Virus record (IMG/VR): IMGVR_UViG_3300009497_000018
Span: 1 to 34,899 of that record
DNA length: 34,899 nucleotides
From: a virus
Strand: one strand, 5' to 3'
In this document: positions 1 through 34,899 of the stretch, one piece after another
How the letters are laid out: every line of letters begins with the position of its first letter
How positions within the stretch are numbered: the first letter of the stretch is position 1
Translations under genes and position numbers: made by a program
Notes under the pieces: model-generated
What the model was told of the DNA's origin: nothing
The model's database searches: none
What the model saw: the letters and a program-made list of their open reading frames with translations, nothing else

Positions 1-123
1 AACTCGCTTGGTAAAAATAAATTTCACAATCACAATCACAAAATAAAAAACAACCACAAAATGAAAACTCAAGGATTAAAAACTCAAACACAAATCAAGA
101 TTAACGGAAAAAACTTTGCGACC
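1..123. repeat. Terminal direct repeat, left copy (contig closure)
   Basis: The first 123 bases are identical to bases 34777-34899. Such an exact end overlap is what an assembler leaves when it reads through a circular or circularly permuted genome. Bases 1-14 are the 3' end, with TAA stop, of the gene that starts at 34569, so a gene is intact across the junction. This favours circular closure over true terminal repeats, although a short real terminal redundancy cannot be excluded. The unique genome length is 34,776 bp. Confidence 0.93.
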
Positions 124-285
124 GAAAAACGGGCGATCAAAGCAATCGAAAAAATAAATCAGTTGCCCGATACTAATCTCAGATTTTTTATTCATCACAA
201 TCCCGAAACGAATCGTTTCCATCCTGTTCTCGTAGGTGCGGTAAACCTCGATTACATACACGATGGTTTCATGGTAATCGCTTAA
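61..285 (+). CDS. Small basic protein of unknown function, early operon
   Basis: Encodes 74 residues that I do not recognise. The protein is basic at its N-terminal half (many Lys and Gln) and ends in a hydrophobic stretch, with no cysteines, membrane segment or enzymatic motif. Its start is set by the leader ACAACCACAAA directly upstream (about 50-60), the same non-Shine-Dalgarno leader found before most genes of this operon. It is the second gene after the promoter at 34482-34510, once the circle is closed, and its first 63 bases are repeated at the right end of the window. Position and size suggest an early phage protein acting on the host, which is inference only. Confidence 0.7.
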   Translation: MKTQGLKTQTQIKINGKNFATEKRAIKAIEKINQLPDTNLRFFIHHNPETNRFHPVLVGAVNLDYIHDGFMVIA

Positions 286-320
286 TAAATTCTCAATCAC
301 AAAATAAAAACAACCACAAA

Positions 321-629
321 ATGAAAAACCTAAAAATAATTAAAAAATCCTCACTCGAGGAAAATGTTTCCCAACGCACGATCACATATTCGATCATGGT
401 GATTTCCCGAACACAGGCTTTGACCGAGGAAAGAAATTCGCTCGAAACAAATTGCCAATCCGATGCGGATCGATTTCGAATCCTTGCAATCGAAAAAGAA
501 ATAAAAAATATTTCCGATGTGCTTTTAATTTCGAATTGCTCAACCAATATTGAACCCGTCGAACTTGTAGGAGGAATCGAGGATTACGAAACTGCCTACT
601 CCATGATGCATCGATTAAAAAATTCTTAA
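321..629 (+). CDS. Hypothetical protein, early operon
   Basis: Encodes 102 residues with no recognised domain. The composition is charged and helical; residues 30-60 look like an amphipathic helix pair. The ATG at 321 follows CAACCACAAA, a near copy of the leader before the gene at 61, and no purine-rich Shine-Dalgarno is present. It lies 35 bases after the previous gene and 33 before the next, so all are probably one transcript. No function can be assigned. Confidence 0.7.
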   Translation: MKNLKIIKKSSLEENVSQRTITYSIMVISRTQALTEERNSLETNCQSDADRFRILAIEKEIKNISDVLLISNCSTNIEPVELVGGIEDYETAYSMMHRLKNS

Positions 630-662
630 TAAATCTCAATCACAAATCAAAACAACCACAAT

Positions 663-1076
663 ATGAAAATAAAAATAATCGCACTCATTTCCACACTCCA
701 AAAAGTTGCCCACAATGTTGGGGTCGATCAAACCGATTTGACCCAAGAAATTATTTCGATCTCAAAACTGAGTTCAATAAATGATGTAAAGGAATTACAG
801 GTCGCGTCCCTCGCCCTACAAAATACCTTAATCGATAAAAAATTAATTGAACGAGTTATTTCCGAACTTGAATATTATGCTCAATGCGACACCAAGTCGT
901 TGCGATCGTTGCGACGAACCATGGTGAAAACCATCGAGGGTTATATAAACCTCTCGCGAACCGACCGACCTCATTCCTACTCTGACTCAATCGAAATCGA
1001 ATGCCGACAAACCTCATTACTCATAAACGATCTTGTTCTTGAGAATTTGGGAACACAAAACAAGGAGGGTAAATAA
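663..1076 (+). CDS. Hypothetical helical protein, early operon
   Basis: Encodes 137 residues, largely predicted helix, with no recognised motif. The start at 663 is preceded by AACAACCACAAT, the operon's usual leader. The gene ends one base before the ATG at 1078 and contains near its 3' end the only strong Shine-Dalgarno of this block (AAGGAGGG, about 1062-1069), which serves the next gene. Coding is supported by the leader, the full-length open frame and tight packing with its neighbours. Function is unknown. Confidence 0.7.
   Translation: MKIKIIALISTLQKVAHNVGVDQTDLTQEIISISKLSSINDVKELQVASLALQNTLIDKKLIERVISELEYYAQCDTKSLRSLRRTMVKTIEGYINLSRTDRPHSYSDSIEIECRQTSLLINDLVLENLGTQNKEGK
1062..1069 (+). 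promoter_or_regulatory. Shine-Dalgarno AAGGAGGG for the gene at 1078
   Basis: AAGGAGGG lies eight bases before the ATG at 1078, inside the end of the preceding gene. It is exceptional here, since neighbouring genes use the ACAACCAC leader without an SD. It fixes the start at 1078 rather than at the upstream in-frame ATG at 1033, and shows the phage can use SD initiation when genes abut. Confidence 0.7.
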
Positions 1077-1077
1077 T

Positions 1078-1320
1078 ATGGAAACACAAAACCTCACCCA
1101 AACTCGTACAGGTTGGAAATTATATCGGGCAAGCAAAGCTCGTTCTGATATCGATGAAGGCCCAATGATCGATTGGTTTTATTCGACAGGGACGCAAACG
1201 ATTCCTAAGGCCAAGAGGATACTTAAAAAACACAGGGATTACATGTTCGGGAACTTCATTTTAATCGACGAAGAAAACGGACAGGTAATCTCATTTCATT
1301 ATTGCCCAAGAAATTTCTAA
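1078..1320 (+). CDS. Hypothetical 80-residue protein, early operon
   Basis: Encodes 80 residues starting METQNLTQ. The frame is open back to 1033, but the Shine-Dalgarno at 1062-1069 and the end of the previous gene at 1076 place the start at 1078. The middle contains a basic helix (AKRILKKHRDY) and the end has a single Cys, with no recognised domain. It may be a small DNA- or protein-binding early product. That is a guess from charge only. Confidence 0.65.
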   Translation: METQNLTQTRTGWKLYRASKARSDIDEGPMIDWFYSTGTQTIPKAKRILKKHRDYMFGNFILIDEENGQVISFHYCPRNF

Positions 1321-1348
1321 TCAACAATCACAAATAAAAAACAACCAC

Positions 1349-1783
1349 ATGAAAACACCAACACAAAGAAATATACTTTTGCTTGAAGAACGCAACGCGT
1401 GCATGCAAACAATAACAACCGCCACGAAAAAATTAATTCACGCTCAACAAAGTGCTTTATTGCACATTGTATCCGAGGATGAACTTACGGGTTATTTCCG
1501 CGATTCAATATTCCACTCGGAAACAATTGCTTATCATTCTCAAAAAATTAAAAAAATAAATATTGATCTTGAACTAATTCATCAGGCTCAACTCGCACAA
1601 AACCGATACATAAATCGAGATGACACAGGTCGATATACCGAACGAGATCACGAATGGTATCTCAACGAGGTTAGTCGCTTGATCGAGGCACGCCAACCTC
1701 GCCAATGCGTTGCTCTCGAACTCATACATTTTGCGGGGTGCGTCGTAAACGAAACTCGTAACCTCACAAAATTACCACTATGA
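1349..1783 (+). CDS. Hypothetical protein, early operon
   Basis: Encodes 144 residues, mostly helical, with no recognised motif. The ATG at 1349 follows ACAACCAC immediately, with no spacer. The last codons overlap the next gene (ATGA at 1780-1783), so translation of the two is probably coupled. Cysteines are few and scattered, and there is no signal peptide or membrane segment. Function is unknown. Confidence 0.7.
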   Translation: MKTPTQRNILLLEERNACMQTITTATKKLIHAQQSALLHIVSEDELTGYFRDSIFHSETIAYHSQKIKKINIDLELIHQAQLAQNRYINRDDTGRYTERDHEWYLNEVSRLIEARQPRQCVALELIHFAGCVVNETRNLTKLPL

Positions 1784-2118
1784 GTTCGAATACAGGACCC
1801 AACCTACTGCATCAGAAAACTCGATGGAGAAAGGAACGCGAAGCTTTGAGGTGTCGAATATTTACCTTCGATAAAGCGATGGCGAGGCTGACCCCTCAAG
1901 CGTTTCTTAAGGATTCGAATATATATAATTATATAACTGACCCACAATCGATCCTAGGCGATCTCCTAGGGGATTCAAGTAATTGGTATGCACAGGAGTA
2001 TAATGGGACGCGACACAAATATTCCGAACAGGAAATGCTCGATACATGGGACATGATTCTCATACATAAAAATAAAAACCAAATCCAACAGGATAAAAAA
2101 AATACAACCACGATATGA
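1780..2118 (+). CDS. Hypothetical protein, early operon
   Basis: Encodes 112 residues with a basic N-terminal half and an acidic middle; no known domain. It starts in an ATGA overlap with the previous stop, preceded by ACCACT, a partial leader. Bases 1958-1982 contain two near copies of TCCTAGGCGATC encoding an Ile-Leu-Gly-Asp / Leu-Leu-Gly-Asp repeat. The 3' end overlaps the next start by four bases and itself contains that gene's ACAACCAC leader. Confidence 0.65.
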   Translation: MSSNTGPNLLHQKTRWRKEREALRCRIFTFDKAMARLTPQAFLKDSNIYNYITDPQSILGDLLGDSSNWYAQEYNGTRHKYSEQEMLDTWDMILIHKNKNQIQQDKKNTTTI

Positions 2119-2594
2119 AAATAACACAAAACCTACTCACTGCATTAATTAAAATATGCGACAAAGCATTAAGCAATCTTGCCGACCAAAGAATCTCGGA
2201 GGTAAATAATTATAAGAAATATATTGCAAATATTCTCGACGATGCCGAAAAGCATTCTGTATCGCCCAATCGATGCAAAGATTACTCAGAAGTTTTGAGT
2301 CGAATCGGGGACACTTGTAATCGAGAAGAAATTGTGCGACGGGCTCGAATAATATTCCTTAATCATCCACTTGACCGCGAGGAAGATTCTTCATTGCTTA
2401 TCGAAATGATCACATCGGGTATCGCACTCAATGGGAATAGGGATGATAGGGATTTATTTCAAGATACCTTGAGGTTTATATGCGACTTGAATAGGGAAAT
2501 AAATAACCACGAATTTCACATGAAACGAAAAGAGGAAAAGTTAAACTCATTCGTGCAATCCGATCTCAGTAAAACACAAGTAAAACTCTCATAA
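2115..2594 (+). CDS. Hypothetical helical protein, early operon
   Basis: Encodes 159 residues, predicted mostly helical and strongly charged, with a Lys-rich C-terminus. No domain is recognised. The leader ACAACCAC (2104-2111) lies in the 3' end of the previous gene and the start ATG is within a four-base overlap. Arg codons here are mostly CGA, as in the whole left operon, whereas the structural genes use AGA more, so the two halves differ in codon habit. Confidence 0.68.
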   Translation: MKITQNLLTALIKICDKALSNLADQRISEVNNYKKYIANILDDAEKHSVSPNRCKDYSEVLSRIGDTCNREEIVRRARIIFLNHPLDREEDSSLLIEMITSGIALNGNRDDRDLFQDTLRFICDLNREINNHEFHMKRKEEKLNSFVQSDLSKTQVKLS

Positions 2595-2612
2595 ACAACA
2601 ACCATAAATAAA

Positions 2613-3521
2613 ATGACAGATAAAAATAACCAACCACAAGATTCGAAACAAACTTCCTCCGCGGTAATTATCCGCTTGCGATGGAGTTTTATGTCGGGTC
2701 ACAAATCGAATAAAGAAGGAGCATTGGAACTCGCAAAGCTCAAGGACGCGGACGAGGATTCAGTTCGTTCATCAAATCGAATAATACAACCATCGGTTCT
2801 TCGCCCACTCAGAAGAATTAAATCTGCTACTAATAAATATATAAACTCAATCACGCACCCATGGGATGATAATGGCGGGAGATTACTGCCCGCGAAAAAA
2901 GTTACTGAGTATCTTAAATACTTTTCCGAACAAAAAGAAAAGTTCGACACAGAGAAAAGTTTACTCCGAGATCAGTATGATGCAATTATACTTGATGCCC
3001 AAAATCGATTAAAGGAAATGTTCAAACCCGAAGAGTTTCCTCTCGTCGATGAATGGCTTGATAAATACGGGGTGCGATCCGAAATGGAAACGATCTCCGA
3101 TTCCGACACTCGTATCGATAACCTAGACTCAAAGGTGATGCGTGACATACAGGAACAAGTTGAGCAAAATGTTACCCATCGGCTGAATGAGGCAAACCGA
3201 AATAATTATTTCAGAATAATTAAAGCGATCGAGAAACTAATCGACCGATTGTCTGCAATGGAATCGGGTGACGCGGAAAGATTCCGAACATCGACATACG
3301 ACGCGGTCACTACGATATTAAACTCAGCCCACGCTCTAAACTTCGCAGAGGATAAAGTGCTGACCGAACTCATAAATAAAACACAAGCCACATTTAATGA
3401 AACTTGTGCATCGCTTAAAGAACTCAAGGAAAACTCAGGGGAATCGAATCCGAAACGAGCCAAGGCTTGCAAGGCGCTCAAATCTCGCGTTGCCGATCTG
3501 ATGACAAACCTCCCTTCATAA
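2613..3521 (+). CDS. Helical protein upstream of the VWA/MoxR pair
   Basis: Encodes 302 residues. The N-terminal 25 are polar and likely disordered. The rest is long charged helices, with probable coiled coil around residues 105-140 and 180-215, and a basic C-terminus. I do not recognise it with certainty. Its place directly before a VWA metallopeptidase-like gene and a MoxR ATPase fits the three-gene arrangement seen in other phages, where a similar-sized helical protein (for example of the DUF3150 type) accompanies the pair; that assignment is inference. The start follows an ACAACCATAAATAAA leader (2598-2612). It may be the substrate-binding or structural partner of the complex. Confidence 0.72.
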   Translation: MTDKNNQPQDSKQTSSAVIIRLRWSFMSGHKSNKEGALELAKLKDADEDSVRSSNRIIQPSVLRPLRRIKSATNKYINSITHPWDDNGGRLLPAKKVTEYLKYFSEQKEKFDTEKSLLRDQYDAIILDAQNRLKEMFKPEEFPLVDEWLDKYGVRSEMETISDSDTRIDNLDSKVMRDIQEQVEQNVTHRLNEANRNNYFRIIKAIEKLIDRLSAMESGDAERFRTSTYDAVTTILNSAHALNFAEDKVLTELINKTQATFNETCASLKELKENSGESNPKRAKACKALKSRVADLMTNLPS

Positions 3522-3584
3522 TATAATAAACCCAACGACCCCTCTCGTCACGAAGGCGGGGGGGGGTAAAAAGGAAACAACCAC

Positions 3585-4862: not shown

Positions 4863-4863
4863 A

Positions 4864-4894
4864 AACAACCATAAATAAAACAACCATAAATAAA
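4864..4894 (+). promoter_or_regulatory. Duplicated translation leader before the MoxR gene
   Basis: The short gap holds two tandem 16-base copies of ACAACCATAAATAAAA, the second ending at the ATG of 4895. There is no Shine-Dalgarno. The duplication of this otherwise single leader supports it being a functional unit, probably for translation initiation. Confidence 0.6.
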
Positions 4895-5926
4895 ATGATC
4901 ATAAATAATTATATTCCCCAAGCAAAAGTATTGCTCGAAAATAAATTCCAATTCCTTACGCTTGGTGCTCCAGGATTAGGCAAAACAGAAATAATAAAGC
5001 AACTTGCTCGCGACCTCGACTACGATCTCGTAATTATGCATCCTGTTGTATTCGATCCGACTGACCTAAAGGGCGTTCCCGCGGTCGTGGTAACCGATAA
5101 ACAAACACGGGCAGAGTTTCTACCGACCGCCCAACTCAGAAAGTTACTTGAGGCTGATCGCCCAACGATTTGTTTCCTTGATGATATAGGGCAATGCTCA
5201 AAAGGTGTACAGGCGGCTTTGATGCAATTGATTATGGCGAGGGAAGTAAATGGGCACAAAATATCCGATCATGTGGTATTTACTGCGGCATCAAATCGAA
5301 AACAAGATCGGGCGGGGGTACAAGGAATGCTTACCCCACTAATTTCTCGATTTAAAACTCGATTAAAACTTTCGCCCGACTTGGATTCTTGGCTCGATTG
5401 GGCTTATGAAAATGAGATTGCTCCCGAGGTTATTGCCTTTGTGAAATGGAAACCCGATATGCTCCACTCGTTTGATCCCGATTACATGGATTCAGATGGG
5501 GAAACAATGTCCAACCAACCTTGCCCGAGAACTATCGAGGCAGTTTCCGATTTATTTAAGGTCGGTTTAAGGTCGCACGAAATTATGGAAGGTGCAATCG
5601 GGGAGGCATTTGCAACAGAGTTTTTAAGCTTTATTCAAATGATTGAGCAACTTGGAGACTTTCCGAGACGCATAGCCCAAGGAAAAAACCCATCCATGTC
5701 AGAATTAAACAATACTAGCCCAAGTATTATGTATGCTTTGACTCAATGTTTGACAGGGATGAGCAAAACGAGTTTTGTGAACATTGCCAAATGGGTTCAA
5801 CGCAATATGAGTTCGGAGTATCAAGCAAAGTACATTACGGAAATCGAAAAAAGGTTTCCCGAATGCACAGAGATGGATGGGTATGCCGACCTCGCAATCA
5901 TCGCGAACGGAATAATAAATTCTTAA
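4895..5926 (+). CDS. MoxR-type AAA+ ATPase
   Basis: Encodes 343 residues of a MoxR/CbbQ-like AAA+ ATPase. Walker A is GAPGLGKT at 24-31, Walker B CFLDDIG at 93-99, sensor 1 TAASN at 130-134 and the arginine-finger segment SRF at 151-153. Length and motif order are normal for the family. MoxR ATPases use ATP hydrolysis to act as chaperones for partners with VWA domains; the partner here is the gene just upstream. The Pro-Gly of Walker A (4970-4974, CCAGG) is one of only four CYGG/CCRG-type sites in the genome. The gene is the last of its operon and is followed by a strong terminator. Confidence 0.88.
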   Translation: MIINNYIPQAKVLLENKFQFLTLGAPGLGKTEIIKQLARDLDYDLVIMHPVVFDPTDLKGVPAVVVTDKQTRAEFLPTAQLRKLLEADRPTICFLDDIGQCSKGVQAALMQLIMAREVNGHKISDHVVFTAASNRKQDRAGVQGMLTPLISRFKTRLKLSPDLDSWLDWAYENEIAPEVIAFVKWKPDMLHSFDPDYMDSDGETMSNQPCPRTIEAVSDLFKVGLRSHEIMEGAIGEAFATEFLSFIQMIEQLGDFPRRIAQGKNPSMSELNNTSPSIMYALTQCLTGMSKTSFVNIAKWVQRNMSSEYQAKYITEIEKRFPECTEMDGYADLAIIANGIINS

Positions 5927-8042: not shown

Positions 8043-8413
8043 AACTCGTTCCGTATGATGATAAACTTTTACACGAGGTAAAAGAACCCGACACGAAAAA
8101 CACAATCACAATACTAGCGGGAGAGGTAGCAGTAAGAATCATGGAGTTTTATGAGCATAATCCCAAAAAATGTATATTATTTCTTCAGCAAATAGTACAT
8201 GTATTTCATACATCACCCGAATCGTTTCAGCTAACGATGCAAGTTCTTTCGGGATCGGGAGAGGAAAAGAAATCTTATTCAAAGTTGGCAGAAGAAAAAG
8301 GAACAAGTCGACAATACCAACACAAAAAAAGACAAACGGAATTAAAAAAACTTGAGGCTCAATTCCCAAAAGTTGCAAAGATTCTCAAGAAAAGCCTATG
8401 GACAAATAAATGA
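8039..8413 (+). CDS. Helix-turn-helix-like protein between terminase genes
   Basis: Encodes 124 residues. Residues 84-100 (SYSKLAEEKGTSRQYQH) look like a helix-turn-helix of the sigma region 4/small-terminase type, followed by a lysine-rich helix. The N-terminal 70 residues are helical. With overlaps of four bases on both sides (start at 8039, stop at 8413 within the large-terminase start), it is part of the packaging cluster. It could be a second DNA-binding packaging component or a regulator of late genes. Confidence 0.7.
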   Translation: MKLVPYDDKLLHEVKEPDTKNTITILAGEVAVRIMEFYEHNPKKCILFLQQIVHVFHTSPESFQLTMQVLSGSGEEKKSYSKLAEEKGTSRQYQHKKRQTELKKLEAQFPKVAKILKKSLWTNK

Positions 8414-10227
8414 AAAAACCGATCGACCTTACTGAGTACGCTTTAAACGCACTCAAACCATTTGAGAATAAAAGTGTAGTCGAGTGGGCAGAAGATAATG
8501 TTGTTCTTAGTGAGCGTATTACAGAACAGGCGGGGCTTTATTCTACAAAAAGCTATCCGTATGTAAGAGAGGTGCTTGAGAACTTTGCTGACCCACAGGT
8601 AAAGCAGATTAGTCTTTGTTGGGGAAGCCAAACAAGTAAAACAACTACAATTTACATAGGCGTGGGTTATAGCGTAGACCAAAAGCCATCTCCTGTACTA
8701 ATGGTGTACCCTACAGACGCGGTCGTTAGAACATTTAGCCAAGATAGACTCATACCTTTTTTCACAGATACAAAATGCTTGTACGATAGGATGCCGAAAA
8801 GCGCTAACGGGAATATAGACAAAGATCGCATCACAACTAATCGATTGGAGTTTGATCGATGCTCAATAAATCTTGTCGGTGGTGGCAGTAGGGCAAATGT
8901 TAGAAATTATCCTGTAAGTATACTTGTCCTCGATGAGATAGATATTATTTCCGAAAGCAGTCGACGGGAAGCAATGGATCGAGTAAAAGGCCGAAGAAAT
9001 TACAAGGTAATCCAAGCGTCAACTCCACTCGAAGAGACAACAGGGATATGGGGAGAGTATCAAAACGGAGACAGAAGAAAATACATGATGCCTTGTCCGC
9101 ATTGCTTGAACGAGATAAGCTTTGAGTGGAAGATCGGGGATGATTTTATGATTAGGTATGATCGGGAGAAATCCCGAACGCCCGATGGGTACAATCTAAA
9201 CGAGGTTATCAAAACAACTTACTACTACTGCCAAGTTTGTAATAAGCCTATCGATGATAAGCAAAAGCAAGTAATGTTGGGCCAAGGTAAATGGCGGGCT
9301 CAATCTAGCTCTAATAAACATCGAAGTTATCACTTAAATAGCCTGTATTCTCCGACCTTAACTTTCAGCGACATCATGGTTAAGTGGATTCAAGCACACG
9401 ACAATGTGGACGGGATTAGAAACTTTGTACAGGGTTGGCTTGCTGAACCTTGGAAGGATGAAATATTAAATGTTAGTGTCGAGAAGATACAAGAACTAGA
9501 GGGCGAGTACGAAAGAGGTACGATCAAAGGCGAGCTTAGAATTATGTCGGTTGATGTTCAGAGATCACATTTTTATTATATCGTTAGAGGCTTTGATAAA
9601 GACGGGTCAAGCTATCTCATCGATCATTCGATGGTTCCTACATTTGCTGATCTTGATGACGCTTTTGCGACCTATGAGTGTCACTACGGGGTGATGGATA
9701 CAGGGTATGGGGATCGGGCACAGGAATGTTACGAGCAATTATTCTTGCGACGCAGAAGTTGGACAGGGATAAAAGGATGGAAGTCGATGGCGACCCCATT
9801 TAAGGTTAATCAAATCGATCCGTTTTCGGGATCGGGCAAACAAGGAAAGCATAAAATAAAACTAATTCATTTGGATGTTACGGTTTGGCAAGGAGAATTA
9901 GGAGCAAGGCGAGCGGGAAAAACAAAAGGTTGGCGGCTTTACAAAGACCCCGACATTATGTACCTTAAGCAACTAAGTTCAAAATGGCAGCACGAAAGCG
10001 TAAACAAAAAAGGAGAAGTATCAGTTGAGTGGAGAACAAAAAGTGGGGCGGGGGATCATTATTGGGACTGCGAAACGTATTGTCTCGCGTTTAGTAAATT
10101 GGTTGGATTTGGTAGGGTACAAGATACGAGCGGACTTAGCCCAAGTGATAGCAGAGCAAACGGAGGAAGTAGTAACAATGAGGAGTCAAATAGAGGTAGA
10201 TCAGAAAAAAGGAAAAGCATTTGGTAG
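8410..10227 (+). CDS. Large terminase subunit, gpA family
   Basis: Encodes 605 residues, the usual size for lambda gpA-type large terminases. The ATPase has a deviant Walker A (WGSQTSKTT, 71-79) and Walker B ILVLDEID (171-178). A zinc-ribbon-like pair (CPHC at 229-232 and CQVC further on) is typical of this family. The nuclease half includes MSVDVQRSHFYYIV and an acidic VMDTGYGDRAQE segment, consistent with an RNase H-like active site. It powers DNA translocation into the prohead and cuts the concatemer. The C-terminal tail is low-complexity Ser/Asn/Arg. gpA-type enzymes usually pair with Nu1-like small subunits and cos cleavage. Confidence 0.93.
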   Translation: MKKPIDLTEYALNALKPFENKSVVEWAEDNVVLSERITEQAGLYSTKSYPYVREVLENFADPQVKQISLCWGSQTSKTTTIYIGVGYSVDQKPSPVLMVYPTDAVVRTFSQDRLIPFFTDTKCLYDRMPKSANGNIDKDRITTNRLEFDRCSINLVGGGSRANVRNYPVSILVLDEIDIISESSRREAMDRVKGRRNYKVIQASTPLEETTGIWGEYQNGDRRKYMMPCPHCLNEISFEWKIGDDFMIRYDREKSRTPDGYNLNEVIKTTYYYCQVCNKPIDDKQKQVMLGQGKWRAQSSSNKHRSYHLNSLYSPTLTFSDIMVKWIQAHDNVDGIRNFVQGWLAEPWKDEILNVSVEKIQELEGEYERGTIKGELRIMSVDVQRSHFYYIVRGFDKDGSSYLIDHSMVPTFADLDDAFATYECHYGVMDTGYGDRAQECYEQLFLRRRSWTGIKGWKSMATPFKVNQIDPFSGSGKQGKHKIKLIHLDVTVWQGELGARRAGKTKGWRLYKDPDIMYLKQLSSKWQHESVNKKGEVSVEWRTKSGAGDHYWDCETYCLAFSKLVGFGRVQDTSGLSPSDSRANGGSSNNEESNRGRSEKRKSIW

Positions 10228-11116: not shown

Positions 11117-11389
11117 ATGGCAGACATACAATCAGTCGCAGACTTAGTCACTTCTCGGGATGCAATGCAAACCGCACTTGATGAATTAATGACCACGGGA
11201 CTTTCGGGTTATACTCTTGGAGGAAGATCAGTTACTTACGAAATGCGCAACGACTTACAAAAACTAATAAATACCTACAATCGAAGAATCGCGGCACGAA
11301 CTGATTCGGGTACAAGGGCTACAGGATTTAATCTTGTCGATTTTAGCAAAAAGACTGAGGTGATAGGGTCAGACGAAGATGAAGGCTAA
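11117..11389 (+). CDS. gpW-like head-tail joining protein
   Basis: Encodes 90 residues. The first 65 follow the gpW pattern: a helix (VADLVTSRDAMQTALDELMT), a hairpin containing YTLGGRSVTYE, then a second helix (MRNDLQKLINTYNRRIAAR). In lambda, gpW seals filled heads and prepares the connector for the tail. Its position just before the portal gene matches the lambda order. It overlaps the portal start by eleven bases. Confidence 0.75.
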   Translation: MADIQSVADLVTSRDAMQTALDELMTTGLSGYTLGGRSVTYEMRNDLQKLINTYNRRIAARTDSGTRATGFNLVDFSKKTEVIGSDEDEG

Positions 11390-12884
11390 TTTTTTCCAAA
11401 GGTTAAAGAAAGCGACCCGATATGCTTTTGGCATTGGCGTTGGTTATGACGCTACTAAAAATACTCGATATAGGGAGCAAAAAAGAATTTACGGAGGAAT
11501 CTTTACAGAGGATAAAGAACTTCCATTGGGCGATAGGTTGTCGATGATTAGTATCCTACTCGATCAAAGAAGAAATAACCCATGCGTCAAAGCGATCTGC
11601 CGACTGCGTGAAGAGGATGTAATTGGGCGTGGCTTAAAACCTAGACCCGATACAGGCGATCCTGTTTTAGATAAAGAATTAGAAAGTTGGTGGGATGATT
11701 ACTCAAGCGACTGCGAAGTTTCGGGACTTTCAATGATGGAGTCTCAAAAGTTACTTTCATCACTACCATTAATTCATGGCGATGGCGGTTTACTTTTACT
11801 CGATGATGGACGGGTTCAGCTTATTGCGGGCGAACAAATTGGCGTTGATACTCCAAGCGTCTTTATGCCCAAGGAATCGGAGCAAAGCGAAAAGAAGGGT
11901 ATCATAGAAGGTCTAGAACTAAACGATGTAGGTGCCGTTACAGGATACCACATTGGACAACTTAGGGATAATGGTCGTGCTAAAAGCGAATTAATTCCCG
12001 CGGACAGATTTATACATCACACAAAGCGAATGCGCATAGGGCAACTGCGAGGAGTTCCCGAACTTGCCACCGCAGTAGATGTTTTAATGGATATACAGGA
12101 GTACGAAAACATTGAAATGATTTCGGCAAAAGCCTCCGCATCTTTATCAGCCGCGGTGAAAAAAGAATCTGCTTTGGATTTCGAGTTGGGGGCTCGCGCC
12201 GAGGCTGATGATCGATTGGAGTATTTCGAGCCGGGGCGATTCCATTACTTGGAGCCTGGAGAAGATGTTAGTGTGATTTCACCAAGTGGTCGACCAAATG
12301 TAAATGCAATCGAGTGGTTGGTTTATAAATTAAGAAAAGTCGGAAGTACAATAGGCATCCCTACTGAGTACCTTTTAATGACCATAGGAGAAACAAGCTT
12401 TTCGGCATCGCAAGGCATGGTTTTACTTTATCAAAACACGATAGAGGCTGAACAAAGATTCATGCAACAAACTTTAAATAAGTGGTGGGGTTGGAGACTC
12501 AAGTATGCGTTAGAATCGAAGGAGCTAACGATCAATACAGAAGTTAACCTAAAACTAAATAAGGTACCTTGGCAATCGCCCGCATTTAGATGGATAAACA
12601 GATCGAGTCAAGTTGCGGCCGATGCACAATACCTACAAATGGGTGCAGTAAGTATCGATACTATCTGCGGTCAGTTCGGAAGTACACCCGAGGAAATCTT
12701 TACACAAAAAGCAAAAGATATTTCCAAGGCAAAAGAATTGGCAATACAATATGACCTTGACTCATGGAGAGACTTAATGAATCCAATTACAACCTTTGGT
12801 AGTTTTTCTTACGCACCTCTCGAAGAACCCGAAATGGTTGACAAGAAACCTATAGTTGAAGAACAACCCGATGCCGACCTATAA
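11379..12884 (+). CDS. Portal protein, lambda gpB family
   Basis: Encodes 501 residues with the size and features of lambda-type portals, including an N-terminal RVREE-like segment (CRLREEDVIGRGLKP, about 73-87), the central VPELATAVDVLMDIQEYE, and GETSFSASQGMVLLYQNTI with WWGWRLKYAL near 335-375. It forms the dodecameric channel at one capsid vertex and binds the terminase. Two of the genome's four CYGG/CCRG-type sites lie here (12231-12234 and 12255-12259), both at Pro-Gly codon pairs. The C-terminus overlaps the next gene by fourteen bases. Confidence 0.9.
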   Translation: MKANFFQRLKKATRYAFGIGVGYDATKNTRYREQKRIYGGIFTEDKELPLGDRLSMISILLDQRRNNPCVKAICRLREEDVIGRGLKPRPDTGDPVLDKELESWWDDYSSDCEVSGLSMMESQKLLSSLPLIHGDGGLLLLDDGRVQLIAGEQIGVDTPSVFMPKESEQSEKKGIIEGLELNDVGAVTGYHIGQLRDNGRAKSELIPADRFIHHTKRMRIGQLRGVPELATAVDVLMDIQEYENIEMISAKASASLSAAVKKESALDFELGARAEADDRLEYFEPGRFHYLEPGEDVSVISPSGRPNVNAIEWLVYKLRKVGSTIGIPTEYLLMTIGETSFSASQGMVLLYQNTIEAEQRFMQQTLNKWWGWRLKYALESKELTINTEVNLKLNKVPWQSPAFRWINRSSQVAADAQYLQMGAVSIDTICGQFGSTPEEIFTQKAKDISKAKELAIQYDLDSWRDLMNPITTFGSFSYAPLEEPEMVDKKPIVEEQPDADL

Positions 12885-16673: not shown

Positions 16674-17630
16674 ATGAGCTTAATCCTAAACCCTAACTTT
16701 ACATCTACGACTACTACCGCGACAGGCGATGCGCTTGTTGCAGTTGGTACCGCAAAAGCATTTGTTAAAATAGCGGGGAATTACAACGGGGCAAGCTTTG
16801 CCGTCGACGAAATTCTTGATATTACAGATTACAACGATAGCAACAGCAGTTATCAGTTGACAAAAAAGGATGGAAGTGGCGGTTTTTATTGGCGAGTGTT
16901 GGGTGATTCATCTTGGGGTCTTGTGGCCACACTTGATGATTGGACTATAACACAAGGTGTACTAAGTCAGACAGAACTTGCAAATGGCAAATTCAAAGGG
17001 GACGCAAGTTCATCCGTTGCTCTGATCGCTTCGCAAGATATTACATTGCTAGAAGACGAGAAATACACAATCGCAAGCACCTCAACAAATTACCGAATTG
17101 ATTTCATAGATGAGGCGGTTGAAAGAGATAGCGATAATGTAACTCAAAAGTTTTTCCAAGGACAAAGAACGGGCTTTACTTTTACCACTAGTACGCTTTT
17201 ACCGACACAAATAACTATACGAGTGGTCGACTCACACGAAATTTCTTCATTTCAAATAACTCAAAAAACAAAACCTATGGCTATTACAAAAGACGGAACG
17301 CATAAATTCGGAATCGAGTACAGTCCGATTACTATAGACGCAAAGACATACATCGCTGAATCAATGAGTTTTAACTCAACTGCAAGTCGTGTAGACATTG
17401 ATGACTCAAACGGAGAACCCGTAGGCTCAACAATTGTCCCAGGTCGTATAGAAGGATCAACAACATTGCAACTTCAAGGAACAGATACTGCCCCCGCTCG
17501 CGGAGATGAGTTTACGCTCGCAAGTGGAGACAATGATGGAGTTTATGTTATACAAGATGTGAGTGAGGCTCAATCACAGGGAGATTACACAAAAGTCTCT
17601 GTGAACTTTTATAAGAAAATAAACGTATAA
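16674..17630 (+). CDS. Major tail (tube) protein
   Basis: Encodes 318 residues from the ATG at 16674; the open frame upstream overlaps the methyltransferase and is not used. The protein is Thr/Ser-rich and beta-structured. Residues about 1-195 form one part and a second begins at MAITKDGTHKFGIEYSP (about 202), so it looks like two domains. The C-terminal domain ends in a strand pair (TKVSVNFYKKINV), as tail tube proteins often do. One CCAGG site (17439-17443) lies at Pro-Gly. Order before the chaperone and tape measure supports the call. Confidence 0.7.
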   Translation: MSLILNPNFTSTTTTATGDALVAVGTAKAFVKIAGNYNGASFAVDEILDITDYNDSNSSYQLTKKDGSGGFYWRVLGDSSWGLVATLDDWTITQGVLSQTELANGKFKGDASSSVALIASQDITLLEDEKYTIASTSTNYRIDFIDEAVERDSDNVTQKFFQGQRTGFTFTTSTLLPTQITIRVVDSHEISSFQITQKTKPMAITKDGTHKFGIEYSPITIDAKTYIAESMSFNSTASRVDIDDSNGEPVGSTIVPGRIEGSTTLQLQGTDTAPARGDEFTLASGDNDGVYVIQDVSEAQSQGDYTKVSVNFYKKINV

Positions 17631-21025: not shown

Positions 21026-21026
21026 T

Positions 21027-22243: not shown

Positions 22244-23317
22244 ATGGCTTTTATCCCGAGCGCAATTGATGGGGAGTGTTGCGATCCTCCTTGTGATAGA
22301 GACTCGCCTTGTGAAAAGTGTTGCGAATGTAAAGTAGCAGACGATCAATTTGTAAAAGTAACTTACGAAGTTAAAAAAGTCACGAGCGATGCGGGGCAAT
22401 CTGATTGTCAAATGGCATACGCGGTTTGCGTATTAGTAGAGTATTTTTATCCACTAGATAATTTGTGCGGGTACGATTCTAAAGGGCCTACTTATGTTCC
22501 CGAATTAAAAGAATGGCAGTTAGGTTCCTATGCAATTGAAGACGAAGAGTGCACAAATAAAGGTCTAGGTACATACTATGGAGAGGAATTTTTTCCGTCG
22601 GGCGGAACAACACAAGTTCCTGTATATAAAGTTTTAACAGTTGAAGATTGGAACAACTCGGGGTCTCAAGGAAGTGTTATGCAAATTGGCATTTATGATT
22701 CCACAGGATGCGGAGGGTGCGATAAGGATATAGAGTTTGATTGCGAAGCGTACGAAGACGAGTCGGGTGGCACAGGGCTTCCATTGTGTTCTGATCCCGA
22801 CTTAGAGAAACCCTGTAGCGAGGGACCATATCCTATAGAAGGAGAAGGTGATGAGCCTTGTTGTCCGTCGGATGCAAATATTTGCGGTAACGATCCCGAG
22901 GATTGTGGAGGGTCGGGAATTACGGGATCGGGAATACAAGGATCGGGAACGCAAGGATCGGGTTGCGTACCTTGTTGCGAGGAAACAAATGACTGCACAA
23001 ATATCCCGCCTTGTTGTGCTAGAGACGAAGCGGGCGAGAAGGAATTACCCGACTGCCCCGCCGATGGAGCATGTTGTGATGGTTCGGAACCCGTTTGTGG
23101 ATCGGGGGTACAGGGTTCAGGCACACAGGGATCGGGCACACAGGGATCGGGTTGTTGCACTGAAACAAATGATTGCGGAGAATGTTGTGATGACCCACCC
23201 GACTGCGAGTGTGATGACTGCTATGATGGTGATCCTACTACTGAATATTATTGCACAGAAACAATTACGGATGACTGCACAGATGTTGACTTTACTGAAC
23301 CTACTAGCAATTGCTAA
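22244..23317 (+). CDS. Cysteine-rich protein with GSG-Q repeats in the tail-tip region
   Basis: Encodes 357 residues, 41 of them Cys (about 11%), often as CC pairs or CxxC, in a strongly acidic background. Residues 30-150 form a more ordinary beta-rich part. The C-terminal half has two blocks of GSGxQ repeats (22913-22962 and 23098-23152) flanked by CC-rich segments, the two halves looking like an internal duplication (GSGCVPCCEETNDC and GSGCCTETNDCGECC). I know no family. Either disulfides form after lysis or the cysteines bind metal. A structural tail-tip role, perhaps binding an extracellular target, is inferred. The stop lies in a 12-base palindrome, TAGCAATTGCTA (23306-23317). Confidence 0.8.
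   Translation: MAFIPSAIDGECCDPPCDRDSPCEKCCECKVADDQFVKVTYEVKKVTSDAGQSDCQMAYAVCVLVEYFYPLDNLCGYDSKGPTYVPELKEWQLGSYAIEDEECTNKGLGTYYGEEFFPSGGTTQVPVYKVLTVEDWNNSGSQGSVMQIGIYDSTGCGGCDKDIEFDCEAYEDESGGTGLPLCSDPDLEKPCSEGPYPIEGEGDEPCCPSDANICGNDPEDCGGSGITGSGIQGSGTQGSGCVPCCEETNDCTNIPPCCARDEAGEKELPDCPADGACCDGSEPVCGSGVQGSGTQGSGTQGSGCCTETNDCGECCDDPPDCECDDCYDGDPTTEYYCTETITDDCTDVDFTEPTSNC
22913..23152 (+). repeat. Two blocks of GGATCGGG-type tandem repeats
   Basis: Each block consists of near-identical 15-base units around GGATCGGG, coding Gly-Ser-Gly-x-Gln. The first block is at about 22913-22962 and the second at about 23098-23152. They are separated by a Cys-rich segment. Repeats like these can expand or shrink by recombination and alter a surface-exposed linker. 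Confidence 0.7.
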
Positions 23318-29320: not shown

Positions 29321-29369
29321 CTTCGACGAATTGGAGTTTATAAAACAATCACAACAAACAATAAATAAA

Positions 29370-29579
29370 ATGAGTAAATGTACTAAAAAAGCGTATGCTT
29401 GCGACTCTTGCGGTCAAGAAAAGGAGATCGAAACAAATCATTGGGGTCAAATCTACAACACGGATTGCTCCGTTTGTGACACATTGACTACTTGGTCTGT
29501 AAGCGAAGAAATTCCCGAAGGTGCGTGGATACCCACACCATGGACTGAAACGATTTCTATAACCCCTCTTGGACAATGA
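29370..29579 (+). CDS. Small zinc-ribbon protein
   Basis: Encodes 69 residues. Two CxxC pairs (CDSC near 10-13 and CSVC near 33-36) form a likely zinc ribbon. The start at 29370 follows ACAACAAACAATAAATAAA, a variant of the leader; an in-frame ATG at 29304 inside the preceding gene would add 22 residues. The stop overlaps the next ATG. Such small ribbons bind nucleic acid or partner proteins. A role in the replication operon is inferred. Confidence 0.62.
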   Translation: MSKCTKKAYACDSCGQEKEIETNHWGQIYNTDCSVCDTLTTWSVSEEIPEGAWIPTPWTETISITPLGQ

Positions 29580-31148: not shown

Positions 31149-31704
31149 AATAGGAAACATAGAGAATACAATATGTGATTACGGATACCATAAGGGTAAG
31201 CATTGTGTTCTGCTAACGACTTGCGTGTCCGAAAAAAAACAGGTTTTGACACTTCAGCAAATACACAAATATGTAGACGAATGTTCGCCAAAACTCGTAC
31301 TGATACAGGGACATACGGAACTTGCGGAAGATGATCCATGTAATCCAAAGTCGTTCACACCAAACATTCTTAAAGCGTTCTTAGGCATGTCAAAAGTTCC
31401 CATCCATATAACCACGAAGGGTTGTTGGGAAACGAATCTAATGGTCGATTGGATGTGCTTGAGGTTTGATAGAAATAAATACCCATTACATGAAAGTGTT
31501 AGGTATGCTTCAGAAGCAATTATTAATGTTTCAAGTCCCGAGGATATTGAAAGTTGGCTTTATTGTGCTGACGAAAAGTTGAGCTATATGCACACTTGGC
31601 TTAAGGAAAAAAACTCACATGAAACAGATACATACATCAGAGATTATGTAATGACTGAGACGAACTTAAGTTTAAAGTACCAATCCCCAACAATGCAGAT
31701 ATAA
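31135..31704 (+). CDS. Protein of unknown function at the end of the replication operon
   Basis: Encodes 189 residues with eight Cys and no recognised family. It contains a possible Rossmann-type strand-turn (KLVLIQGHTEL, near 53-63) and conserved-looking FTPNILKAFLGMSK and GCWETNLMVDW segments. It overlaps the helicase loader by 14 bases. It lies just before the ParB/glycosyltransferase group and could belong to either module. An enzyme on nucleic acid or nucleotides is a guess. Confidence 0.62.
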   Translation: MKSLKIGNIENTICDYGYHKGKHCVLLTTCVSEKKQVLTLQQIHKYVDECSPKLVLIQGHTELAEDDPCNPKSFTPNILKAFLGMSKVPIHITTKGCWETNLMVDWMCLRFDRNKYPLHESVRYASEAIINVSSPEDIESWLYCADEKLSYMHTWLKEKNSHETDTYIRDYVMTETNLSLKYQSPTMQI

Positions 31705-31707
31705 ATC

Positions 31708-31743
31708 TTTTTTGTTTACTTTGTTCCGATTCAGCTTTACCTC
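31708..31743 (+). promoter_or_regulatory. Possible promoter of the ParB/glycosyltransferase group
   Basis: The 12-mer TTTTTTGTTTAC (31708-31719) is shared with the strong promoter region at 34475-34486. TTTACT (31715-31720) would be the -35, with a poor -10 (TACCTC at 17 bases). The start codon at 31750 would leave a very short leader. Confidence 0.35.
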
Positions 31744-31749
31744 CTAGGT

Positions 31750-32382
31750 ATGAAAGTAAATTGCAGCCACACTAAGCTAGTAAATATAAAAGACTTAAAA
31801 ACCAATCCTCGGAACCCTAATGTTCACCCCGAGAATCAAATACTTTTACTTGCTAAAATATTAAAAGCATCGGGATGGAGATCACCCGTAGTCGTAAGTA
31901 ATCTGAGCGGATTAATCGTGAAAGGTCACGGCAGATTACAAGCCGCAAAGGTCGCGGGCTTTAACAAAGTCCCTGTAGACTTCCAAGATTATGAAACTGC
32001 GGAAGAAGAAACTGCCGACTTAATTGCTGATAATAGGCTCGCAGAGCTATCGGACTTTGACGGACAAATCTTGAAAGATTTAATCGAGGAACTTGATACA
32101 GGTAAAGGTGATCTTGACCTTACGGGTTACGATCAAAAAAGTTTAGAGCAACTCATGTCTCAATTCCATGTCGATGCAGTAGACGAGGAAGCAGAATACG
32201 ACGGGATGCCTAAAGTTGATCTAATCGAGGAGTCATTTAGAAAACTTATTGTTCACTTTGATAATGAGAACGATGTAAAAGATTTTCAGTTAAAACTAGG
32301 ACTGAGCAAACTTACGGAAAAAACTACTTCAATGTATTGGCCTTGGAAAGATCGGGCAACAGAAGCACCTAACTTTGAATAG
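31750..32382 (+). CDS. ParB-like nuclease-domain protein
   Basis: Encodes 210 residues. The ParB/Srx fold N-terminal domain has LKTNPRNPNVHPENQ near 16-30 and GHGRLQAAKVAGFNKVPV near 58-75, the usual signature. The remainder has DNRLAELSDFDGQILKDLIEEL and a C-terminal extension. In phages this domain is commonly found beside or fused to DNA methyltransferases and in base-modification clusters; here it stands alone before two glycosyltransferases. It could nick DNA or bind nucleotides. Full partition function is not implied. Confidence 0.82.
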   Translation: MKVNCSHTKLVNIKDLKTNPRNPNVHPENQILLLAKILKASGWRSPVVVSNLSGLIVKGHGRLQAAKVAGFNKVPVDFQDYETAEEETADLIADNRLAELSDFDGQILKDLIEELDTGKGDLDLTGYDQKSLEQLMSQFHVDAVDEEAEYDGMPKVDLIEESFRKLIVHFDNENDVKDFQLKLGLSKLTEKTTSMYWPWKDRATEAPNFE

Positions 32383-33180
32383 GTGGGTGACTTAAAGTAT
32401 AAGATTTATATCCCTAGTAAGGGTCGGTCAAATAACTGCAAGACCGCAAATGTGTTACTGAAGTACGGCTATACAAAGTTTCAAATTGTAATCGAGCCAC
32501 AGGATGAAAAAGATTACTTAAAAATATACCCAAAAGAAAACTTACTTGTACTAAGTAAGAACGATCAAGGATTAGGATGGTCACGGCAGATTACAAAAGA
32601 AATAAGCCAAAAAGAAGGAGTTGAGTACCATTGGTCGCTTGATGATGATTTAAAGTTCTTTCGAAGAACTATTACATTAGAAGATGGCGAGGTTAAAAAA
32701 AGAAACGCTGTTTGCAATCCTATTGAGCTATTTGAGGAAATAGAAGAATATGTTCAGCCGTTTGGAAATATTGGAATGGTTGGGCTGATTCACCAAGCTT
32801 TTGGATGGACGAAAACTAAAGACTTAGAGTTTAACAGGCAATGTGCGAGTGCATTTCTTATAAATAATAACACAAAAGCTAAATTTAGATTAAAGTTAAA
32901 ACTTGATACTGACTACAATCTTCAGTTGCTCTTCGATAAATGGGTAACAATAAACTTTAACAAGTTTTTATACGACAACCCTGCTTTCGGCACGGTTGAA
33001 GGCGGGCTTACTAATATTTACAGAAACGAAGCAGAGGAGCACCAAAAGATATTTATAAAAAAGTGGCCTTTCTTTGTTCAAGAAAAAGTCATGGGGAAGC
33101 AATATGCGACTCGTATTAAACCGAATAATATTTGGCGAAAGTTTTCACAAAGACCGAAGCTAAAAGTCGATTGGAATTAA
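32383..33180 (+). CDS. TET-associated-type (TAGT-like) glycosyltransferase 1
   Basis: Encodes 265 residues from GTG 32383, directly after the ParB stop. The TAGT pattern is present: YIPSKGRSNNCKTANVL near 8-24, IVIEPQDEKDY near 35-45, GLGWSRQ near 64-70 and YHWSLDDDLKFF near 82-93, with DDD as the metal motif. Members of this group are known to glycosylate 5-hydroxymethylcytosine in phage DNA, made by TET/JBP oxygenases. Neither a cytosine methyltransferase nor a TET oxygenase is seen in this genome. The acceptor could be DNA or another phage component. Confidence 0.78.
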   Translation: MGDLKYKIYIPSKGRSNNCKTANVLLKYGYTKFQIVIEPQDEKDYLKIYPKENLLVLSKNDQGLGWSRQITKEISQKEGVEYHWSLDDDLKFFRRTITLEDGEVKKRNAVCNPIELFEEIEEYVQPFGNIGMVGLIHQAFGWTKTKDLEFNRQCASAFLINNNTKAKFRLKLKLDTDYNLQLLFDKWVTINFNKFLYDNPAFGTVEGGLTNIYRNEAEEHQKIFIKKWPFFVQEKVMGKQYATRIKPNNIWRKFSQRPKLKVDWN

Positions 33181-33187
33181 AAGTAAA

Positions 33188-34045
33188 GTGAAGCAAGGTA
33201 CGAACAATCGTTACCCATTGTACATTCCCTCGAAAGGAAGGTGGGAAACAATGTTCACTTCTAAGTATCTTACTGAAATGGGATTGAATCATAATATTGT
33301 GGTCGAGCCACAAGAAGTAAGAATATATCAAGACGCGGTAAAGAACTTGAGCGCAAAGATCATCCCTTTAGATATGTCGTATAAAGATAAATATGAGTAT
33401 TGTGATGAGCACGGAACTACAATCTCAACAGGAAGTGGTCCCGCGAGAAACTTTATTTGGGATCACTCTATTAGTGAGGGACACGATTGGCATTGGATCA
33501 TGGATGACAATATAAAGTCGTTCGGAATAAAAAAGGACGGGACGCGTGGCAGAACGAAGAATAAAATCTTTTGGACGCTAATGGAGGACTATGTGCAAAG
33601 CTATGAGAATGTAGTTATGGCGGGGCCTAATTATACTTTTTTTGTTTATGCTACAAAGAAACCCTTTCATGCTAATACGAGAATTTATTCATGTAACTTT
33701 ATAAAGAACGACATACCATACAGATGGAGAGGTCGCTATAATGAGGATACTATTTTGTCACTTGATATACTTAAGGGTGGTTTATGCACAATCTTATTTA
33801 ATGGTTTTATTCAGTACAAGATGGGAACTCAATGCGTGAAGGGTGGCAATACGGATTCAGTTTACAAGCATGGAACATACGACAAGTCAAAGCAACTGAT
33901 GGATGTTCATCCCGATGTTGCTCGGGTAAATCAAAGATACGGACGCATACATCACTTTGTAAATTATGGGAAATTCAAGTCGCAAGGATTTATAAAAAAG
34001 AAAAAGTTCAAGATCGCAGAACATGAATGGAAAAGATTATGTTAA
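33188..34045 (+). CDS. TAGT-like glycosyltransferase 2
   Basis: Encodes 285 residues from GTG 33188, seven bases after its neighbour. It repeats the pattern: YIPSKGRWETMFTSKYL near 10-26, VVEPQEVRIYQ near 37-47, GSGPARNFIWDHSISEGHD and WHWIMDDNIKSF (about 80-113). The two genes are tandem paralogues but well diverged, so they likely use different acceptors or donors in sequence. A Gly-rich stretch near the middle and a Lys-rich C-terminus are notable. Tandem sugars on one base or one glycan are the simplest reading. Confidence 0.78.
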   Translation: MKQGTNNRYPLYIPSKGRWETMFTSKYLTEMGLNHNIVVEPQEVRIYQDAVKNLSAKIIPLDMSYKDKYEYCDEHGTTISTGSGPARNFIWDHSISEGHDWHWIMDDNIKSFGIKKDGTRGRTKNKIFWTLMEDYVQSYENVVMAGPNYTFFVYATKKPFHANTRIYSCNFIKNDIPYRWRGRYNEDTILSLDILKGGLCTILFNGFIQYKMGTQCVKGGNTDSVYKHGTYDKSKQLMDVHPDVARVNQRYGRIHHFVNYGKFKSQGFIKKKKFKIAEHEWKRLC

Positions 34046-34356
34046 ACTCAAAAAATAAAGGTGCTCGATACGAGCGAGAGGTCGCAAAGATACTTCGTGA
34101 GTTCGGGTATGAAGCCCGACGCGGAATCCAATTTAGAGGAGGCGAAGATTCCCCCGATGTTATCTCAGATTTCCCATTACATATCGAAGCAAAGCATGTC
34201 GAAAAACTGAATATTTGGAAAGCCCTAGAGCAAAGTGAGCGCGACTCAAACGGGAACCCTTTTTGTGTGATTCATCGACGAAACCGAACCGATACTTTCG
34301 TCACTCTAAAACTTACTGAGTTCGTCAAATTGACCCGTCAGAGAGCGGGTCCCTAA
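34027..34356 (+). CDS. PD-(D/E)XK nuclease, Holliday-junction-resolvase-like
   Basis: Encodes 109 residues. The active-site order is E in YEREVAKIL near 16-24, D in EDSPDV near 41-45, and EAK in HIEAKH near 53-58, as in the archaeal-type Hjc and related phage PD-(D/E)XK enzymes. It probably resolves branched phage DNA before packaging. ATG 34027 is taken as start, ATG 34039 is an alternative; both overlap the glycosyltransferase end. It is the last gene before the terminator-promoter junction. Confidence 0.8.
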   Translation: MEKIMLNSKNKGARYEREVAKILREFGYEARRGIQFRGGEDSPDVISDFPLHIEAKHVEKLNIWKALEQSERDSNGNPFCVIHRRNRTDTFVTLKLTEFVKLTRQRAGP

Positions 34357-34375
34357 GTCCCGAAATAGTTGGAGT

Positions 34376-34385
34376 GGGGGGGGGG
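34376..34385 (+). repeat. Run of ten G residues
   Basis: Ten consecutive G, the longest homopolymer of G in the window, lie in the gap after the nuclease gene, followed by TAAAAAACCCC, so a four-base GGGG/CCCC stem is possible. Similar runs of seven to nine G occur elsewhere (3558-3566, 4650-4658, 23425-23431, 30483-30491). Confidence 0.9.
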
Positions 34386-34457
34386 TAAAAAACCCCGAAA
34401 AAACACAAGAAATATACAGATTTAGTTACCGAAACGCTTGACTGTCACTTACTTAGT

Positions 34458-34480
34458 ACAGAAACCCCTTCTGTTTTTTT
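34458..34480 (+). terminator. Rho-independent terminator
   Basis: ACAGAA (34458-34463) pairs with TTCTGT (34469-34474) around ACCCC, followed by TTTTTT to 34480. It ends the ParB/glycosyltransferase/nuclease group and abuts the -35 of the next promoter. Confidence 0.8.
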
Positions 34481-34481
34481 G

Positions 34482-34510
34482 TTTACATTTTTAAGGATTT
34501 CGGGTAATAT
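34482..34510 (+). promoter_or_regulatory. Consensus sigma70-like promoter of the early operon
   Basis: TTTACA (34482-34487), an exact 17-base spacer and TAATAT (34505-34510). It directly follows the terminator and leaves a 5' leader of about 50 bases before the gene at 34569. It drives the operon that continues through the circle junction into bases 61-5926. Confidence 0.85.
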
Positions 34511-34568
34511 GAATACTTCATATTAATTCACAACCACACCCATACATATATATACAACCACTCAAAAC

Positions 34569-34790
34569 ATGATCGATAACACAAAAAATTACTCAAAATT
34601 AAACATCGGTGACCCTGTTAAATTCACCACGAAAAACCACGATAACTCAAATCGAATTTTCAAAATTGTAAAGAAACACAAATCGTTCTCAACCGACACG
34701 CATTCAGTATGGTTTCTCGAATGCCCGACCTATAATAATAAAATAATAAAAACGATCGGCAACGATTCGAATTTAAAACTCGCTTGGTAA
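34569..34790 (+). CDS. Small protein, first gene of the early operon
   Basis: Encodes 73 residues, basic, with no recognised family (begins MIDNTKNYSKLN). The start follows ACAACCACTCAAAAC, the operon's leader. It is the first gene after the promoter and continues across the contig junction, its last 14 bases being repeated at 1-14. Being first in the operon suggests an immediate-early role in host takeover; no motif supports a specific one. Confidence 0.7.
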   Translation: MIDNTKNYSKLNIGDPVKFTTKNHDNSNRIFKIVKKHKSFSTDTHSVWFLECPTYNNKIIKTIGNDSNLKLAW

Positions 34791-34899
34791 AAATAAATTT
34801 CACAATCACAATCACAAAATAAAAAACAACCACAAAATGAAAACTCAAGGATTAAAAACTCAAACACAAATCAAGATTAACGGAAAAAACTTTGCGACC
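34777..34899. repeat. Terminal direct repeat, right copy
   Basis: Identical to bases 1-123. It includes the end of the gene at 34569, the leader, and the first 63 bases of the gene at 61, so the contig wraps on itself. Confidence 0.93.
34837..34899 (+). CDS. Second copy of the start of the gene at 61 (partial)
   Basis: The first 21 codons of the gene that starts at 61, present only because the contig ends overlap. It is not a separate gene. Confidence 0.9.
   Translation, partial: MKTQGLKTQTQIKINGKNFAT

Follow-up and report, generated by a model that had tools for sequence, protein, structure and literature searches.

Near-total loss of several short DNA words, among them asymmetric CTGG/CCAG, and depletion of matching amino acid pairs in an uncultivated tailed phage

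The sequence studied here is the IMG/VR record IMGVR_UViG_3300009497_000018, a linear, uncultivated viral contig of 34,899 bases, and the whole of it is referred to below as the window. It is a tailed phage of bacteria, with a terminase (phrog_15), a lambda-like portal, a major head protein and a tape measure, and it also codes for a Sak-type annealing protein, a DnaC-like loader, a RusA-like PD-(D/E)XK nuclease, a ParB-like protein and two TAGT glycosyltransferases (Table 1). What concerns us is a set of short words, CCAG/CTGG and CCGG among them, that have nearly disappeared from this DNA, together with the amino acid pairs whose codons would force such words to be present.

Over the + strand of the window CTGG was found once (12256), CCAG twice (4970 and 17439) and CCGG once (12231). 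A sequence-only reading had placed four CYGG/CCRG sites at 4970, 12231, 12255 and 17439, and the computed count reproduces them exactly. Both kinds of null model that it had proposed were run. Under the Markov model 106.9 CCAG plus CTGG and 64.6 CCGG were expected against the 3 and 1 observed, i.e., a depletion of about 35- to 60-fold. In the codon-shuffle null, synonymous codons were shuffled 200 times over 45 open reading frames (ORFs), preserving proteins and codon usage. The means were 138.6 CCAG plus CTGG (standard deviation 10.2) and 37.7 CCGG, and no shuffle went below 113 or 21, respectively. The depletion affects both strands and all three codon phases, and the 2,895 non-coding bases contain no CCAG, CTGG or CCGG site. 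The neighbouring words CAGG, TCAG and CTAG lack such a depletion.

Three other words that the sequence-only reading had not listed were nearly absent from the window, ACGT (3 observed vs. 44.7 in the Markov model), RGATCY (0 vs. 30.7) and GAATTC (0 vs. 11), and a weaker avoidance was detected for GCWGC (6 vs. 30), CASTG (7 vs. 32) and ACNGT (18 vs. 78). When CAG was examined with its two flanking bases, CCAGN, ACAGC, ACAGT, GCAGC, GCAGG and TCAGG were avoided, and ACAGA, ACAGG, GCAGA, GCAGT, TCAGA, TCAGC and TCAGT were not. CAGG/CCTG, described earlier as common, appears so because ACAGG/CCTGT makes up 113 of its 126 occurrences, TCAGG, GCAGG and CCAGG being depleted. The same description holds for CGGG/CCCG, which is even strongly over-represented (266 vs. 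114 in the codon-shuffle null) because it is the main product of synonymous escape. Also as described, the codon preceding TGG (Trp) ends mostly in T (85) or A (52), less often in G (28) and never in C. Two wider definitions of the missing site were discarded: the degenerate palindrome CYRG, since CTAG is at its expectation (56 vs. 55.7), and CCDG as such, since CCTGT/ACAGG is common in the window.

The collinear contig IMGVR_UViG_3300045738_000588 (35.8 kb, ca. 73% DNA identity to the window, hereafter G001) allowed a site by site comparison. It avoids CCGG (0 observed of 101 expected), ACGT (0 of 69), GCGC (0 of 70), CCWGG (5 of 78), RGATCY (0 of 45) and GAATTC (0 of 18), yet its CCAG is near expectation (261 of 302), and therefore the avoidance of CCGG and that of CCAG are separable. 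Along the aligned coding DNA, G001 has 208 CCAG/CTGG sites, none of which is retained in the window, 96 having been lost at unchanged amino acids; comparable tetramers of G001 that are not avoided were retained at 9 to 21% of their sites. This, with the loss in all phases, on both strands and in non-coding DNA, upholds the earlier claim that selection was very strong, here on the DNA itself, with synonymous codons as a way of escape. The replacements took several directions and were mostly transversions (CCAG to CCCG in 24 cases, CTGG to CGGG in 16 and CTGG to TTGG in 15), a spectrum that fits poorly with mutational bias, which was rejected as the cause. The set of avoided words differs between the window, G001 and other relatives, indicating repertoires that vary separately.

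The four surviving sites are all Pro-Gly pairs and, as had been noted from the sequence, the only ones in the 45 ORFs, where 23.5 were expected. Since the same positions are Pro-Gly in G001, these pairs are likely fixed by protein function. Pro-Gly is one of five dipeptides whose codon pairs always spell a palindrome of the form XYNX'Y', with CCNGG for Pro-Gly, GGNCC for Gly-Pro, GCNGC for Ala-Ala, ACNGT for Thr-Val and GTNAC for Val-Thr. Among all dipeptides of the window's proteins, four of these five are the ones most depleted, namely Pro-Gly (4 vs. 23.5 expected), Thr-Val (15 vs. 36.9), Gly-Pro (8 vs. 23.5) and Ala-Ala (27 vs. 45.1).

This relation was followed over a wider set of contigs, scoring the avoidance of each site only in the two codon phases in which it is not forced and comparing it with the observed/expected ratio of the dipeptide. 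With 112 to 118 contigs, close relatives included, the rank correlation was 0.78 for Pro-Gly, 0.54 for Gly-Pro, 0.56 for Ala-Ala and 0.35 for Thr-Val. The value for Val-Thr was −0.04, with GTNAC avoided in three contigs only. After dereplication, the pooled ratio in contigs avoiding the site out of frame was 0.13 for Pro-Gly (11 contigs), 0.13 for Gly-Pro (8), 0.29 for Ala-Ala (2), 0.32 for Thr-Val (5) and 0.31 for Val-Thr (1), counting both the window and G001, which are not independent and were both kept because their DNA similarity is below the clustering cut. In non-avoiders it was 1.04, 0.79, 1.13, 1.09 and 1.04, respectively, Gly-Pro being somewhat low even there; the ORFs of the contigs were predicted mechanically. 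Contigs that avoid one palindrome often avoid others, and the ratios of non-matching dipeptides are low in places.

The clearest evidence comes from single contigs in which the effects separate. The predicted proteins of contig L019 lack Pro-Gly, Gly-Pro, Ala-Ala and Thr-Val altogether (12, 12, 21 and 16 expected), while Val-Thr is present 18 times (16 expected). L021 has no Gly-Pro, Ala-Ala or Thr-Val while Pro-Gly is found nine times, and L135 has neither Pro-Gly nor Gly-Pro, with normal Ala-Ala and Thr-Val. Isolates behave similarly. In the annotated proteins of the Verrucomicrobia phage P8625 (L180, NC_029047), 9,400 residues in all, Gly-Pro is absent where 24.8 were expected (29 in the comparison with the next two isolates) and Pro-Gly occurs 22 times, the genome having 2 GGNCC (76 expected) and no GTAC (53 expected). 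Lactococcus phage sk1 has 2 Ala-Ala (30 expected) with normal Thr-Val, and Helicobacter phage KHP30 has 5 Thr-Val (16 expected). It seems probable to us that when a phage lineage loses a palindrome the matching forced dipeptide is driven from its proteome, that the missing dipeptides would reveal which host enzymes the lineage has met, and that in the window an undescribed asymmetric CTGG/CCAG specificity is added to this. Of the whole phenomenon, what surprises more is this link of missing dipeptides to avoided palindromes, and no account of it was found in the open-access literature searched. As a separate observation, contig L079 (IMGVR_UViG_2914150438) shows the mirror image of the Thr-Val rule, with out-of-frame GTNAC at 1 of 21 expected, Val-Thr at 5 of 16 and Thr-Val at 18 of 16.

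Related viral contigs, gathered with the terminase, TAGT and ParB-like proteins as queries, fell into 60 clusters (8 kb or longer) when grouped by DNA similarity; as they were chosen by homology to genes of the window, their frequencies are not representative of phages in general. Near-total loss of CCAG was found in four of the 60, the window, L069 (3 observed of 39 expected), L127 (0 of 37) and L135 (0 of 78). In the test of related phages suggested by the sequence-only reading, the loss recurred in three other clusters but not in the collinear G001. All four CCAG avoiders also avoid CCGG and ACGT, although among testable clusters avoidance was limited to 9 of 56 for CCGG and to 8 of 59 for ACGT. 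L069 has a different structural module, its terminase being 26% identical to that of the window, while the ParB-like and TAGT proteins are 74 and 76% identical; this sharing suggests that genes have moved between phages with a shared host range. Partial patterns were found as well. L089 has no CCAGA or CCAGT (CCAGW) and yet has 10 CCAGC and 2 CCAGG (12 CCAGS). L019 lacks CCAGC, CCAGG and CCAGT (CCAGB) but keeps 74 CCAGA, with CCGG avoided and CCAG overall not depleted. CCAG could therefore be composite. No gene confined to the CCAG avoiders was found, the nuclease and ParB-like genes of the window being present also in G001 (L127 and L069 are partial contigs, and the lack of a gene in them is less than certain). 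In L019 and L021 nearly every G+C-rich palindrome tested was missing, and the asymmetric word CCCAA/TTGGG (0 of 41 and 1 of 27 expected, respectively) may be another undescribed specificity. L003, a 10 kb fragment from a different sample, has terminase and head proteins identical to those of the window.

Table 1. Features of the window (G001 and L069 are related contigs described in the text)
Feature	Position	Strand	Remarks
Whole contig	1..34899	.	Near-total loss of CCAG/CTGG, CCGG, ACGT, RGATCY and GAATTC vs. Markov and codon-shuffle nulls
CCAGG	4970..4974	+	Forced by Pro-Gly in MoxR-like AAA ATPase (4895-5926); Pro-Gly conserved in G001
CCGG	12231..12234	+	Forced by Pro-Gly in portal protein (11379-12884); Pro-Gly conserved in G001
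CCTGG	12255..12259	+	Forced by second Pro-Gly of portal protein; Pro-Gly conserved in G001
CCAGG	17439..17443	+	Forced by Pro-Gly in tail-tube-like protein (16674-17630); Pro-Gly conserved in G001
Terminase large subunit	8410..10227	+	phrog_15, E 9.8e-98; query for collecting relatives
ParB-like protein	31750..32382	+	74% identity to ParB-like protein of CCAG-avoiding L069; structural genes only ca. 26% identical
Two TAGT-family glycosyltransferase genes	32383-33180 and 33188-34045	+	PF20691, E 2.1e-30 and 2.1e-35; phrog_842; second gene 76% identical to L069 TAGT
RusA-like / PD-(D/E)XK phage nuclease	34027..34356	+	phrog_244, PF24608; 71% identical copy in G001

Other parts of the window deserve mention. 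Between 2613 and 5926 a DUF3150 protein, a DUF2201 metallopeptidase/VWA-like protein and the MoxR-like ATPase adjoin each other, an unusual module for a phage; relatives of this module are present in L015. A protein of 357 amino acids (22244-23317), very rich in Cys and Gly and with repeated GSGxQGSG stretches, had no Pfam match. In phage DNA hypermodification of the TET plus TAGT type, an oxygenase or a cytosine methylase goes together with a TAGT glycosyltransferase; within the subset of window ORFs that was scanned, neither a TET/JBP oxygenase nor a cytosine C5-methylase was found to accompany the TAGT pair.

As for the host, about 25 of the 38 relatives of the ParB-like protein in genome contigs belong to Verrucomicrobiota, and in the class that includes an Opitutales genome 16 of 384 genomes had terminase matches with E values of at most 1e-60, vs. 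7 of 371 for the class that includes a Lachnospiraceae genome. These homologies lean weakly towards a host in Verrucomicrobiota. No prophage avoiding CCAG was found among the genome contigs matched by alignment of the ParB-like protein, and the search of genome contigs by terminase alignment gave no match. Six sampled stretches of Verrucomicrobiae genomes (L253, L255, L270, L274, L289 and L292) have no GTAC at all, although 15 to 31 copies were expected in every one of them, which points to strong avoidance of sites by host genomes in this class.

We consider it very likely that this tailed phage avoids multiple host restriction specificities, an asymmetric CTGG/CCAG among them. ACGT, RGATCY, GAATTC and several 5-bp words are missing besides CCAG/CTGG and CCGG, so several specificities are involved. 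We infer that the cutting agents are host nucleases, mostly Type II-like, with CTGG/CCAG among their sites. Host enzymes, probably of the orthodox Type II kind, would cut unmodified phage DNA at CCGG, CTGG/CCAG, ACGT, RGATCY and GAATTC. The same would apply, though less strictly, to GCWGC, CASTG, ACNGT, GGNCC, TCAGG, GCAGG and ACAGC. Every site would reduce survival and sites would disappear, chiefly by synonymous change (e.g., CCA-G to CCC-G, CT-GG to CG-GG). When the amino acids themselves make a site unavoidable, as Pro-Gly, Gly-Pro, Ala-Ala and Thr-Val do, the pair would often be lost, mainly functionally fixed pairs persisting. Several points weigh against this explanation. Of the 68 stretches sampled from Verrucomicrobiae genomes, as possible hosts, none shows a depletion of CCAG. 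Known avoided sites are mostly palindromes, as are CCGG, ACGT, RGATCY and GAATTC here, whereas CCAG/CTGG is asymmetric. An orthodox Type II enzyme that recognizes CCAG/CTGG as a 4-bp site is not known to us, and a literature search on CTGG/CCAG specificities found nothing relevant.

The sequence-only reading had explained the missing words by one host nuclease with the degenerate site CYGG/CCRG. A nuclease of the host stands as the simplest source, but a single site is not established, given that CCGG and CCAG come apart in G001 and that other words are missing. We think it unlikely that such an enzyme covers CCAG/CTGG plus CCGG, the remaining words being due to other systems. It would fit the avoidance of CCGG in all four CCAG-avoiding clusters, across all flanks in the window, L127 and L135. 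However, G001 and L019 avoid CCGG without an overall depletion of CCAG, indicating a separate CCGG specificity in the host range; ACGT co-occurs equally strictly and cannot belong to the same motif, and L089 and L019 have partial CCAGN patterns. These two contigs, each lacking some CCAGN contexts and keeping others, speak instead for the loss of CCAG/CTGG as the sum of several 5-bp specificities (CCAGW, CCAGC, CCWGG etc.), as does the avoidance in the window of the asymmetric 5-bp words TCAGG, GCAGG and ACAGC. With all CCAGN contexts lost together in four different phages, and completely in two, we keep this composite origin only as a tentative alternative to one 4-bp site.

Explanations that dispense with host enzymes fare worse. 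A sequence-specific nuclease of the phage might attack host DNA, the phage avoiding its own site, and in favour of this are the PD-(D/E)XK nuclease and ParB-like genes of the window; but both genes have relatives in G001, where CCAG is not avoided, and with no gene found to be exclusive to the CCAG avoiders, two of which (L127 and L069) are partial contigs, this self-encoded cutter was rejected as very improbable. Removal of the words by mutational bias, DNA structure or translation effects could appeal to the mild under-representation of palindromes in many genomes irrespective of their restriction systems (PMC4687349). Yet an effect of ca. 35- to 60-fold that spares CAGG, TCAG and CTAG, is independent of codon phase, extends to non-coding DNA and has escapes in several mutational directions makes causes other than cutting barely credible.

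The avoidance of restriction sites is normally viewed as a change of DNA that spares the proteins, and here the pressure reaches the amino acid sequence. The loss of dipeptides thus provides a simple internal check on avoidance and a gauge of the strength of restriction selection in nature, and missing dipeptides offer a route, by sequence alone, to the restriction repertoires of the hosts of uncultivated phages. That an asymmetric 4-bp word has been lost almost entirely points to an enzyme specificity that merits a search.

Site avoidance by phages is already known, as an established anti-restriction strategy (Rusinov et al., 2018, PMC6286503), and the window is a strong new variant of it. 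In host genomes avoidance is caused by orthodox Type II systems only, whether the site is a palindrome or asymmetric (Rusinov et al., 2015, PMC4687349); that study differs from our case in dealing with host genomes, where depletion is weaker, and does not discuss a CCAG specificity. The isolates P8625, sk1 and KHP30 resemble the window in the scarcity of the dipeptides of avoided palindromes, but have other sets of specificities, CCAG and CCGG being normal in P8625. As in the prokaryotic viruses of Rusinov et al. (2018; PMC6286503), short sites have been nearly eliminated from the window, a double-stranded DNA phage, the palindromic, Type II-like words CCGG, ACGT, RGATCY and GAATTC being among them. 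What sets the window apart is that an asymmetric 4-mer is its most depleted word, that many specificities are avoided together, and that the avoidance extends to amino acid pairs, a topic absent from the main text of that paper.

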